DNA of 64,000 bases from Capillimicrobium parvum (GTDB taxonomy: Bacteria > Actinomycetota > Thermoleophilia > Solirubrobacterales > Solirubrobacteraceae), in NCBI RefSeq assembly GCF_021172045.1, contig NZ_CP087164.1, forward strand, positions 5,704,001 through 5,768,000. Direction: 5' to 3'. The notes beneath the pieces were generated by a model. That model ran no database searches. It saw nothing but the letters and a program-made list of their open reading frames with translations, and was not told the origin of the DNA. Shown here piece after piece: positions 40,143-61,317 of the stretch. Each line of letters starts with the position of its first letter. The first letter of the stretch is position 1. The translations under genes were made by a program, and so were the position numbers.

Positions 40143-40183
40143 GCGCGGACGTGTGGCCGCTCGTGCCCGCTCAGCGGGCACGG
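40143..40183. repeat. Interspersed hairpin repeat
   Basis: GCGCGGACGTGTGGCCGC leads into the inverted repeat GTGCCCGCT-C-AGCGGGCAC (40163-40181), with perfect 9-bp arms. The same unit (GCGCRGACGTTTGG followed by GTGCCCGCTGAGCGGGCA) occurs three times at 59.4-59.6 kb. It lies in the 248-bp noncoding stretch between hyuA and the next operon's last gene, where it might also act as a terminator for the cysteine hydrolase transcript on the left side of it or simply be a REP-like element. Confidence 0.6.
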
Positions 40184-57886: not shown

Positions 57887-59083
57887 ATGACACTCCCCCT
57901 TGCCGACGTGCGCGTCATCGCGGTCGAGCAGTACGGCGCGGGCCCCTGGGGCACGCTGCAGCTCGCCGACCTGGGCGCCGAGATCATCAAGATCGAGGAC
58001 CCGGCCTCGCACGGCGACGTGGGGCGCTACGTCCCGCCGTACGCCGCGGACGAGGACTCGCTGTTCTTCGAGACGTTCAACCGCAACAAGAAGAGCGTCT
58101 CCCTCGATCTGCGCACGCCGCGCGGGCGTGAGGTGTTCGAGCGGCTCGTCGCCGGCGCGGATGCGGTCTACTCGAACCTCCGCGGCGATCAACCGGCCAA
58201 GCTGCGCCTGACCTACGACGACCTGCGCGACGTCAACCCGCGCATCGTGTGCTGCTCGCTGTCGGGCTTCGGGATGACGGGGCCGCGCGCGGGCGAGGCG
58301 GGCTACGACTACATCATGCAGGCGATGGCCGGCTGGATGAGCATGACCGGCGACCCCGACGGGCCGCCGACGAAGAGCGGCCTGTCGCTCGTCGACCTCT
58401 CCGGCGGGTACGTGTCGGCGATCGCGCTGCTCGCGGGACTCTGGCGCGCGCGCCGCGACGGCGTCGGCTGCGACTGCGACATCTCGCTCTTCGAGACCGC
58501 GCTGCACCAGCTCATGTACATCGGCACCTGGGCGGCGACCGAGGGCTACCGGCCGCGGCGCATGCCCGAGTCCGCGCACCCGTCGATCGTGCCCTTCCAG
58601 GCCTTCGCGACCGCCGACGGGTGGCTCACGGTGGCCTGCGCGAAGCAGAAGTTCTGGGAGATGCTCGCCCGCGCGCTCGACCACGAGGAGCTGCTCGACG
58701 ACCCGCGCTTCGCGGACTTCGCCGGCCGCAACGAGCACCGCGAGGAGCTGCTGCCGGTGCTGCGCGAGGCGTTCGCGCGCCGCACGACCGACGAGTGGCT
58801 GGAGGTCCTCGCCGCCGCGGGCGTGCCCCACGGGCCGATCTACGAGGTCGGTGAGGCGCTCGAGGACCCGCACGTCCACGCGCGCGACGACGTCGTCGAG
58901 ATCCCCCACCCGCGGTTCGGCACCGTCCGCCAGCTCGCCTCGCCGCTGCGGCTGAGCGGGGAGCCCAACCCGCTCGACCGCGCACCGTTCCGCGGCGAGC
59001 ACACCGACGAGGTGCTGCGGGAGCTGGCCGGCTACTCCGACGACGAGATCGCGGAGCTGCGCGCCGGCGGGACGTTCGGCTGA
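57887..59083 (+). CDS. Family III CoA-transferase (CaiB/BaiF type)
   Basis: A 398-residue CoA-transferase: LPLADVRVIAVEQYGAGPWG at the start, IIKIEDPASHGDVGRYV, FNRNKKSVSLDLRTPRGREV and a family-typical GFGMTGPRAGEAGYDYIMQA. The Asp expected to carry the acyl anhydride lies in LSLVDLSGGYVSA. It begins at ATG 57887 without a ribosome site, behind a palindromic box. It would activate a carboxylic acid as its CoA ester, perhaps one made by the divergent hydrolase. A paralogous family member is in the 19.7-29.5 kb array. Confidence 0.85.
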   Translation: MTLPLADVRVIAVEQYGAGPWGTLQLADLGAEIIKIEDPASHGDVGRYVPPYAADEDSLFFETFNRNKKSVSLDLRTPRGREVFERLVAGADAVYSNLRGDQPAKLRLTYDDLRDVNPRIVCCSLSGFGMTGPRAGEAGYDYIMQAMAGWMSMTGDPDGPPTKSGLSLVDLSGGYVSAIALLAGLWRARRDGVGCDCDISLFETALHQLMYIGTWAATEGYRPRRMPESAHPSIVPFQAFATADGWLTVACAKQKFWEMLARALDHEELLDDPRFADFAGRNEHREELLPVLREAFARRTTDEWLEVLAAAGVPHGPIYEVGEALEDPHVHARDDVVEIPHPRFGTVRQLASPLRLSGEPNPLDRAPFRGEHTDEVLRELAGYSDDEIAELRAGGTFG

Positions 59084-59095
59084 GGCAAGCGGCGC

Positions 59096-59220
59096 GGCGC
59101 GGTCCGCGCGGTCCGCGCGGCGCGGTCGGCGCGGTCGGCGCGGTCGGCGCGGTCGGCGCGGTCGGCGCGGTCGGCGCGGTCGGCGCGGTCGGCGCGGTCG
59201 GCGCGGTCGGCGCGGCGCGC
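59096..59220. repeat. Minisatellite of 9-bp GGTCGGCGC units
   Basis: After two GGTCCGCGC units, about eleven consecutive copies of GGTCGGCGC follow, then the array decays. It begins 12 bp after the CoA-transferase stop. The frames through it encode Arg-Ala-Asp or Thr-Ala-Pro repeats only because the unit is 9 bp; they are not taken as genes. Copy number is likely to vary between strains. Confidence 0.85.
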
Positions 59221-59276
59221 TCCGCCCAAGTCACTTCACGGGACCAACCGCGCTGAACGGCCTCATCGAAGGGGAA

Positions 59277-59640
59277 CGGAGCCGGGTCCGCGCCTGGGCC
59301 GCGCGGGTGCGGCCGGCGGTGGCGTGACCCGGTCCTGTCGCGTTGACGGCGTCATGTGACGTCGACGCGACACGACCGGCGTCGCGCGGGCGCGGGCGCA
59401 GACGTTTGGGCGGTTGTGCCCGCTGATTGGGCGCGGGCGCGGACGTTTGGGGTTGTGCCCGCTGAGCGGGTATAGATGCCCGGAGCCGGGTCCGCGCCGG
59501 GGCCGCGCGGGTGCGGCCGGCAGTGGCGTGACCCGGTCCTGTCGCGTTCACGGCGTCATGTGACGTCGACGCGACACGACCGGCGTCGCGCGGGCGCGGG
59601 CGCAGACGTTTGGGCGGTTGTGCCCGCTGAGCGGGCATAG
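59277..59640. repeat. Tandem duplication of a hairpin-containing unit (204-bp period)
   Basis: A unit starting CGGAGCCGGGTCCGCG occurs at 59277 and again at 59481. Each copy contains the near-perfect 20-bp-arm hairpin CCGGTCCTGTCGCGTT...CGCGACACGACCGG (59329-59379 and 59533-59583; 18 of 20 arm bases pair in the first copy) and the GCGCAGACGTTTGGGCGG / GTGCCCGCTGAGCGGGCA element (59395-59424, 59437-59471, 59600-59638). The same two elements occur singly at 1766 and 40143. Confidence 0.7.
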
Positions 59641-59655
59641 ACGCCCGAACCCCCG

Positions 59656-59668
59656 GAGCGGACCGCTC
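59656..59668. terminator. Small perfect hairpin in the repeat island
   Basis: GAGCGG-A-CCGCTC lies between the convergent CoA-transferase and amidase genes. It has no T-tract and is shorter than the hairpin at 56914, so a termination role is only possible. Apart from this, 59641-59786 shows no recognisable feature beyond the right arm of the inverted-repeat element. Confidence 0.3.
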
Positions 59669-59786
59669 ACGCCCCGCAGGACGGCACACGAGGGCGCGCG
59701 AATCGGGCCCGAACCCCGCCCCGTTCCCCTTCGATGAGCTCCGCCCACGCCCAGCCCGCCGGCAACGGGCCGCAAGAGCGCGGAGC

Positions 59787-59871
59787 CCCGGCGCGAACGC
59801 CCGACCCTCGCCCCGGCGCGAACGCCCGACCCTGGCCCCGGGGCGCGAACGCCCGACCCTCGCCCCGGCGC
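59787..59871. repeat. Three direct copies of a 25-27-bp GC-rich unit
   Basis: GCGCGAACGCCCGACCCTCG with a CCCCG link occurs three times in a row, ending 25 bp before the amidase stop codon. One copy differs by CTGG for CTCG and carries two extra G. It completes the 812-bp noncoding island that began after the CoA-transferase. Confidence 0.7.
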
Positions 59872-59895: not shown

Positions 59896-61317
59896 CTACC
59901 GCGCCACGCCCGCCCACGCCGCCTCGTCCGGCCGGCGCAGATGCCAGTCCGTCGCCTGCTGGTAGCCGTGCGCGGCGCGCAGGACGGTGCCGTCCTCGAA
60001 CGGGCGGCCGAGGAGCTGCATCGCGACCGGCAGCCCGTCGACGAACCCGCACGGCACGACGAGCGCCGGCGTGCGTGAGCACACCCACATCCCGATGAAC
60101 CGCGCGAGCACGCCGGTCATCGCCAGCGGCTCGCTCTCCGCGGCCAGCGGCGCGGCGCGGCCGGCGCCCGGACACAGCAGCAGGTCGCGGCCCTCGAGCA
60201 CCTGCAGCACCCGCCGGCGCCACTCGCGCTGGACCTGGCGCCCGTAGCCGTACTTCGGCCCGGGCATCGCCGCCCCGCGGCGCAGCCGCTGCAGGACGTC
60301 CGGCGCGAAGACCTCCGGCGTGTCGCGCAGGCGGTCCTGGTGAAACCAGGCCGCCTCGCACAACAGCATCTCCGCGCTGAGCTCGAGCGCCTCCTTGCCG
60401 CCGGGCAGCTCGACGTCCTCGACGATCGCGCCGAGCCGCTCCAACTGCCCGACCGCCTCGTCGAGCAGCGCCGCGAACGCCGGGTCGAAGTCCGCGTCGT
60501 CCTCCCACCAGCCGCGCAGCACGCCGATGCGCATGCCGTCCACACCGCCGGCGAGCGCCGCCGCGGAGTCGTCGACCGCCACGTCGATCGTCACCGGGTC
60601 GTCCGGGTCGTAGCCGGAGATCGCATCCAGCATCGCCGCGACGTCCTCGGCCCGGCGGGCGAGCGGCCCGATCGTGTCGAACGTCCACGCCACCGGGATC
60701 GACCCGCGATTGCTCACGCGCCCCGAGGTGGGGCGCAGCCCGCAGCAGCCGCTCAGCGCCGCGGGCAGCCGGATCGAGCCGCCGGTGTCGGTGCCGAGCG
60801 TCGCGAGCGCGAGGTCCGACGAGATCGCCGCCCCCGAGCCGCCGCTGGAGCCGCCGCTCACGCGCGCGGGATCCCACGGGTTGTGCACGTCGCCCCAGTG
60901 GACGTTCTGGTTCGTCCCGCCGATCGCCCACTCCGACATGTGCAGCTTGCCGAGCAGCACCGCGCCGGCGCGGCGCAGCCCCTCGTACGCCGGCGCGTCC
61001 TGCGCGGGAGCGCGGTCGGCCGCCGGCAGGTGACGGGTGCCCGCGGTCATCGGAACGCCCGCGACCGCGATGTTGTCCTTCAGCGCGACCGGCACCCCGG
61101 CCAGGGGCCCGAGCGGGTCGCCGCGCCGCGCCGCCTCGTCGACCGCCGCCGCCTGCTCGAGCGCGAGGTCGGCGGTCACGGTGCGGTAGACGTTGAGCGC
61201 CTCGCCGTGGGCGGCGATCCGGTCGAGGTAGCCCTGCGCCAGATCGACCGCGGAGAGCTCCCCGGCGGCGATCGCCCGCCGAACCTCCGCGATGGAGACG
61301 TCGGGCGGCGTGCTCAA
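59896..61317 (-). CDS. Amidase-signature hydrolase
   Basis: A 473-residue amidase with Lys80 in PVALKDNIAV, cis-Ser157 in GGSSGGSG and nucleophile Ser181 in GTDTGGSIRLPA. The start is taken as TTG 61317, which overlaps the RidA stop by 4 bp (TTGA); the frame continues upstream but only through the RidA gene. It is related to the amidase at 31.8 kb (Lys80 at the same residue). It is last in a hyuA-hyuB-ridA-amidase operon, so it probably hydrolyses the open-chain amide released by HyuAB or a precursor. Confidence 0.8.
   Translation of the reverse strand: MSTPPDVSIAEVRRAIAAGELSAVDLAQGYLDRIAAHGEALNVYRTVTADLALEQAAAVDEAARRGDPLGPLAGVPVALKDNIAVAGVPMTAGTRHLPAADRAPAQDAPAYEGLRRAGAVLLGKLHMSEWAIGGTNQNVHWGDVHNPWDPARVSGGSSGGSGAAISSDLALATLGTDTGGSIRLPAALSGCCGLRPTSGRVSNRGSIPVAWTFDTIGPLARRAEDVAAMLDAISGYDPDDPVTIDVAVDDSAAALAGGVDGMRIGVLRGWWEDDADFDPAFAALLDEAVGQLERLGAIVEDVELPGGKEALELSAEMLLCEAAWFHQDRLRDTPEVFAPDVLQRLRRGAAMPGPKYGYGRQVQREWRRRVLQVLEGRDLLLCPGAGRAAPLAAESEPLAMTGVLARFIGMWVCSRTPALVVPCGFVDGLPVAMQLLGRPFEDGTVLRAAHGYQQATDWHLRRPDEAAWAGVAR

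Follow-up and report, generated by a model that had tools for sequence, protein, structure and literature searches.

The CoA-transferase–amidase interval and its 477-bp element

The stretch of DNA analyzed here, the window, comprises 64,000 nucleotides of the genome of Capillimicrobium parvum (contig NZ_CP087164.1, positions 5,704,001 to 5,768,000), which consists of a single 5.95-Mb contig (G000:C1). Within it, an exact 18-bp inverted repeat bounds a 477-bp element (positions 59262-59738) located between two convergent genes, one for a family III CoA-transferase and the other for an amidase. A preliminary description of the window had interpreted this element as resembling a miniature inverted-repeat transposable element (MITE), without a gene and filled with hairpins. 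The element was found to contain two members of a genome-wide family of 37-nt palindromes, and the same palindrome brackets a DUF559 nuclease gene elsewhere in the genome. The coordinates of the features are listed in Table 1.

The terminal inverted repeats (TIRs) were located as described, and their arms are exact reverse complements. They form the sole perfect inverted repeat of at least 18 bp with arms no more than 600 bp apart in the window, and no comparable repeat of at least 18 bp appeared in 60 windows simulated with a third-order Markov model. Ungapped, the arms extend imperfectly to 44 nt at 82% complementarity; the preliminary description had given about 31 bp. The absence of a gene was supported by codon statistics, which showed no coding signal in the interval; a protein-coding reading of the long minus-strand open reading frames (ORFs) found in this GC-rich DNA was rejected on the same grounds. 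The hairpins are well founded: both 37-nt palindromes fold better than their shuffled versions, with z values of -2.6 (59336-59372) and -2.0 (59540-59576).

The preliminary description did not include an internal tandem duplication of 156 nt (59277-59432 and 59481-59636, 97% identity, 204-bp spacing), each half of which holds one 37-nt palindrome and one shorter palindromic motif, or the tandem arrays present on both sides of the element. A further copy of the palindromic motif, TGCCCGCTCAGCGGGCA, is found away from the element at positions 40164-40180 of the window, and an array nearly identical to that at 59095-59215 lies inside an ORF of an unrelated genome (G127:C32). A search of Rfam with the region returned one chance match, below threshold. 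No DNA matches to the element were found in plasmid and phage collections, and the exact hairpin was not found in viral contigs.

Table 1. Features of the 477-bp element and of the interval that contains it (positions in the window).
Feature	Position	Strand	Remarks
CoA-transferase family III gene	57887..59083	+	Flanking gene, context
9-bp tandem array, (CGGCGCGGT)n	59095..59215		Between left gene and element
Left TIR, CTCATCGAAGGGGAACGG	59262..59279	+	Imperfect extension reaching 59305
Internal unit A of tandem duplication	59277..59480	+	204-bp spacing
37-nt palindrome 1, TGTCGCGTTGACGGCGTCATGTGACGTCGACGCGACA	59336..59372		Genome-wide family member; 60.8 bits, E 1.3e-13
Second palindromic motif, TGCCCGCTGAGCGGGTA	59456..59472
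Internal unit B of tandem duplication	59481..59652	+	59481-59636 97% identical to 59277-59432
37-nt palindrome 2, TGTCGCGTTCACGGCGTCATGTGACGTCGACGCGACA	59540..59576		62.3 bits, E 4.5e-14
Second palindromic motif, TGCCCGCTGAGCGGGCA	59621..59637		Core similar to palindrome around Tsukamurella DUF559 gene
Right TIR, exact reverse complement of CTCATCGAAGGGGAACGG	59721..59738	-	Imperfect extension starting 59695
Tandem array, unit of about 25 bp	59785..59871		Between element and right gene
Amidase gene	59896..61317	-	Flanking gene, context; convergent with the CoA-transferase III gene

A genome-wide family of 37-nt palindromes

With a covariance model built on the 37-nt palindrome (ggtccTGTCGCGTTCACGGCG, 5 nt, CGCCGTNNACGCGACAggacc), 41 places in 24 loci of the C. 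parvum genome were detected at E<=0.001, either single or grouped in arrays of two to five members spaced about 72-82 bp apart. The palindromes are a repeat family with an extragenic bias: 22 of the 24 loci are intergenic and, among these, 12 lie between convergent genes, compared with 58 of the 328 gene pairs sampled over 400 kb (P 1e-4), while two lie between divergent genes. As short palindromes with many extragenic copies, they are repetitive extragenic palindromes (REPs) in the broad sense. An array of five (L110, 3164636-3164986) is located far from any DUF559 gene, and another locus (L102, G000:C1:5043030-5043218) has three palindromes with a 72-bp spacing apparently inside a predicted gene.

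The distribution of the palindrome across 146 genomes of the Solirubrobacteraceae, at E<=1e-5, is patchy. In addition to the C. parvum genome, many copies were found in G071, which belongs to another genus, and few in three others; an exact copy of the hairpin pattern is present in a metagenome-assembled genome named Solirubrobacteraceae bacterium. Base-pair covariation among the hairpins of the C. parvum genome was no better than in shuffles. These copies are alike by descent and, therefore, the evidence for the structure comes from the stem itself and from variants found in other genomes, such as the palindrome of the same-genus genome G002, which has compensating changes (TGTCGAG...CTCGACA). 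A genome-wide search for the domain of the REP-associated tyrosine transposases (RAYT/IS200; PF01797, Y1_Tnp) produced no matches at E<=10. No unpaired GTAG was seen beside the stem; the aligned copies with their flanks show GGTCC/GGACC.

A nuclease gene bracketed by its own palindrome

The palindrome is found on both sides of the gene at G000:C1:3530133-3531017, as an array upstream and as one copy across the stop codon, and the best match of the window's palindrome 2 (59540-59576), 30 of 37 positions, is to the 3' palindrome of this gene. The array in front of this C. parvum DUF559 gene (L095, 3041-3460) comprises five palindromes spaced about 72-124 bp. The same palindrome stands at both ends of a homologue with 45% identity in G071: the start codon lies in the loop of one palindrome and the stop codon within another. 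The palindrome family is, then, associated with the nuclease gene. The proteins consist of an AbiEi-type (winged-helix) N-terminal part and a C-terminal DUF559 nuclease domain, as assigned by Pfam (DUF559, AbiEi). The genes neighboring the units in G071 and in C. parvum are those for enoyl-CoA hydratase, an ABC ATPase with ABC_tran_Xtn, a LuxR-type regulator and HypC; no AbiEii toxin gene was found among them.

The nuclease profile matches the endonuclease-like 3hrl and, with an E value of 7e-8, the "mobile intron protein" 3r3p, which we take to be I-Bth0305I. The latter enzyme is of the EDxHD type, and EDxHD enzymes act as dimers on targets of nearly 60 bp (PMC3943268), a length that would suit a palindrome of 37-57 nt. 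The linked gene encodes a domain homologous to that of the EDxHD homing endonucleases, with conserved E, D, H and D residues, and the catalytic residues are intact beyond this single case: E, D, ExD, H and D are kept in all, or in all but one, of 24 palindrome-flanked proteins.

These 24 proteins come from a survey of 85 DUF559 genes in 36 Solirubrobacteraceae genomes, in which the 5' flank of each gene was compared with its 3' flank at a threshold score of >=20. Matching segments at both flanks were found for 24 of the 85 genes (14 of the 36 genomes), compared with 5 of 304 genes in a 400-kb sample and none of 29 neighbor genes (Fisher 4e-13). The five controls that reached this score resemble coding duplications on inspection. 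One DUF559 positive, L203, located among tandem repeats, is doubtful. In 20 cases out of 24, the matching segment is a palindrome, and the 5' palindrome often overlaps the start codon or directly precedes it. The matching ends are gene-specific: in all 17 genes tested, the 5' palindrome is matched more closely by the gene's own 3' palindrome than by the 3' palindromes of the other genes, and the median palindrome similarity is 0.78 within a gene and 0.15 between genes. The more alike two proteins are, the more alike are their palindromes (Mantel r 0.30, P 0.002).

A similar arrangement exists outside the family. On a plasmid of Tsukamurella tyrosinosolvens (NZ_LR134454.1), an organism from another class of the phylum, the DUF559 gene at L278 1459-2328 is bracketed by an inverted pair of TGCGGTGGATTCTCACCGCTCAGCGGGCAATATCCACCGCAC (score 34.5), the core of which resembles the second palindromic motif of the 477-bp element. 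No account of DUF559 genes with palindromes was found in the open-access literature searched, subscription papers being outside its scope.

Syntenic sites in related genomes

The interval between the enoyl-CoA hydratase and ABC ATPase genes was compared in three congeners, G071 (L183), G033 (L254) and G013 (L255), and they differ in what is present there. In G071 it contains the unit with TGTCGCG palindromes plus one extra solo palindrome. In G033 the homologous gene is present (the region is 81% identical) and the extra palindrome of G071 is missing; the G033 palindromes differ in sequence from those of G071 and match each other at the two ends of the gene. In G013 the gene is absent and there are two copies of a third palindrome. 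Both ends of the homologous gene changed together between G033 and G071.

The preliminary description had suggested a comparison of the site in relatives. The same two genes that flank the element in the window are present in the relative G083, separated by 126 bp instead of 812 bp, and the 477-bp element is absent. The G083 interval holds a degraded palindrome that agrees at 31 of 37 positions with the one belonging to the nuclease gene of that same genome; matches elsewhere in the same locus did not exceed 20 and those in shuffles did not exceed 23. Together, these comparisons indicate that the same intergenic places hold different palindrome families in different genomes. Such presence or absence at a syntenic site is compatible with a nuclease that drives the copying of its own gene.

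TIR arms and the MITE interpretation

Further copies of the arms, which were to be expected of a MITE, exist in the C. parvum genome. A second complete TIR pair, CATCGAAGGGGAACGG, was found at G000:C1:1237984-1238240, where it delimits 257 bp around two of the same hairpins, likewise between convergent genes. A DNA search with the whole element found no second full copy in the genome, only matches to parts. At up to three mismatches, there are 88 arm matches genome-wide, 10 of which adjoin hairpin loci, compared with 0.28 expected; therefore, arm and hairpin form one repeat system. Several loci carry one end, and most hairpin loci have no arm. A lone arm, CATCGAAGGGGGACGG, with neither hairpin nor partner, lies between convergent genes at L115 (G000:C1:5481406). 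The 18-bp TIR is a recurring boundary of several palindrome composites, and the conserved and numerous part of the family is the internal 37-nt palindrome rather than the TIR.

The identification of the element as a MITE was thus partly supported. According to this explanation, the element would have arisen from a DNA transposon by deletion and would be mobilized by a transposase recognizing the 18-bp TIR, and the inner hairpins would be passengers. The perfect TIR, the second complete copy with the same ends, the non-coding interior, the clustering of arm matches at hairpin loci and the absence of the element from the syntenic site in the relative G083 all agree with it. However, inspection revealed no target-site duplication at either complete copy, and the insertion sequence with the same ends that the preliminary description had envisaged was not found: no transposon or insertion sequence with these ends was present in the genome at up to two mismatches. 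Furthermore, there are only two complete copies versus 41 palindromes, these two copies are alike only in their ends and palindromes, and a TIR is completely lacking in most members of the family. A true MITE is, consequently, an unlikely explanation.

A proposed nuclease-linked selfish element

We lean toward an interpretation of the 477-bp stretch as a REP-like composite, non-coding, non-autonomous and partly decayed, whose palindromes belong to the nuclease-linked family. Its core 37-nt palindrome would be the terminal palindrome of a small selfish-looking unit formed by a palindrome, an AbiEi/DUF559-EDxHD (Vsr-like) gene and a second palindrome. We propose that binding of the nuclease to its own palindrome, probably in dimeric form, is followed by a cut or nick in the DNA there. 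Recombinational repair would copy the whole unit, or the palindrome alone, into the broken sites, and would also maintain the similarity of palindromes within a family. If the two palindromes of a unit recombined with each other, a solo palindrome would be left, in a manner comparable to the origin of solo long terminal repeats. Insertions would survive mainly between convergent genes, where they are harmless, and would duplicate there and form mosaics like the 477-bp element. More tentatively, these units may represent an undescribed class of actinobacterial selfish elements, in which a palindrome-bracketed EDxHD (DUF559) plus AbiEi-type gene spreads itself and solo REP-like palindromes by homing into its own palindrome. 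Palindrome and nuclease specificity would co-evolve, giving each unit a private palindrome at both ends, and the 477-bp element would be a fossil composite.

Several observations weigh against this interpretation. The C. parvum gene has ATA where its G071 homologue has ATG, so the nuclease gene of this genome may be inactive, truncated or start further downstream. The window palindromes differ from those of the unit at 7 of 37 bases, and the nuclease does not account for the TIR. Matching ends are missing from 61 of the 85 DUF559 genes, which either lost them or never had them. Flanks were judged on starts predicted by a codon-usage model trained on the C. parvum genome, and the main control genes all come from one genome. 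The movement, binding and cleavage attributed to the nuclease-palindrome system are a proposal, which we infer from the arrangement of genes and repeats, and the 5' palindrome could instead be an autoregulatory operator.

The last point can be extended to an explanation of the whole family as regulatory sites. The AbiEi-type winged helix would act as a repressor and the palindromes would serve as its operators, while the dispersed copies would form a regulon or structure the nucleoid. The AbiEi-type N-terminal domain, the frequent position of the 5' palindrome on or just before the start codon, and the co-variation of palindromes and protein are in its favor. Nonetheless, the dispersed copies favor convergent 3' ends and only 2 of 22 are between divergent pairs; besides, an operator leaves unexplained both the matching copy at the stop codon and the conservation of the catalytic residues across the 24 palindrome-flanked proteins. 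We therefore consider it improbable. Still less credible is that the palindromes are bidirectional transcription terminators or mRNA-stabilizing hairpins that became repetitive. They are stable hairpins and lie between convergent genes and after stop codons, but no terminator-like sites were detected in the region, a T tract after the GC-rich stem is absent, the sequence is conserved well beyond pairing, also in a second genome, two copies lie between divergent genes, and identical palindromes occur before and behind the nuclease genes. Intergenic decay, in which GC-rich sequence undergoes slippage and local duplication and comes by chance to resemble other repeats, can be set aside almost entirely: it accounts for the tandem arrays on both sides and agrees with the duplication inside the element, but it is contradicted by a genome-wide palindrome family (E 1e-13) with 24 loci here and further copies in other genomes, and by the absence of the TIR from simulations.

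We know of no agent for the REP-like palindromes that lack a RAYT, including those of the CGTC class. If the nuclease-driven spread that we propose is correct, such an agent would be a non-HUH nuclease family whose genes are bracketed by their own palindromes, DUF559/AbiEi-like genes now annotated as being of unknown function or as orphan antitoxins would acquire a function, and the fields of homing endonucleases and REP elements would be joined. The claim lends itself to a direct test, since a target site is predicted by each unit for itself.

Comparison with known systems

MITEs and MITE-like repeats such as enterobacterial repetitive intergenic consensus (ERIC) sequences and Correia elements are, like the 477-bp element, small, non-coding, intergenic and bounded by TIRs, but the element described here has no target duplication, only two complete copies and no cognate transposase that we could find. 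The EDxHD homing endonucleases (I-Bth0305I; PMC3943268) share with the linked gene a homologous nuclease domain, conserved catalytic residues and the long target expected for a dimer. In contrast to them, the gene described here is free-standing and intergenic, has an AbiEi-type N-terminus, is bracketed by its own palindromes and is accompanied by many solo palindromes; no intron or intein was seen.

The palindromes also resemble REPs. The CGTC-tagged REPs (PMC3733652) are also REP-like, extragenic and with no dedicated transposase known, but their stems are 8-9 bp long with an unpaired CGTC end, whereas the palindromes described here have stems of about 16 bp, and a tag of this kind was not observed. 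REPs and bacterial interspersed mosaic elements (BIMEs) that are associated with a RAYT (Y1, HUH), known as REPtrons (PMC3733652, PMC2817692), differ in their partner, which here is an AbiEi-DUF559/EDxHD nuclease; no Y1/HUH protein was found in the C. parvum genome in the PF01797 search. They differ as well in that the palindromes described here are 37-57 nt long with stems of about 16 bp, no unpaired GTAG tag was seen, and the start and stop codons of the gene can fall inside the palindromes. On the other hand, both systems have short extragenic palindromes with many solo copies and clusters, located mostly at 3' ends or between convergent genes, the same palindrome flanks a nuclease-type gene, and the palindrome family differs from genome to genome (PMC3733652, PMC2817692). 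The family of palindromes described here resembles REP elements in its behavior, and the gene linked to it encodes a nuclease, not a transposase.
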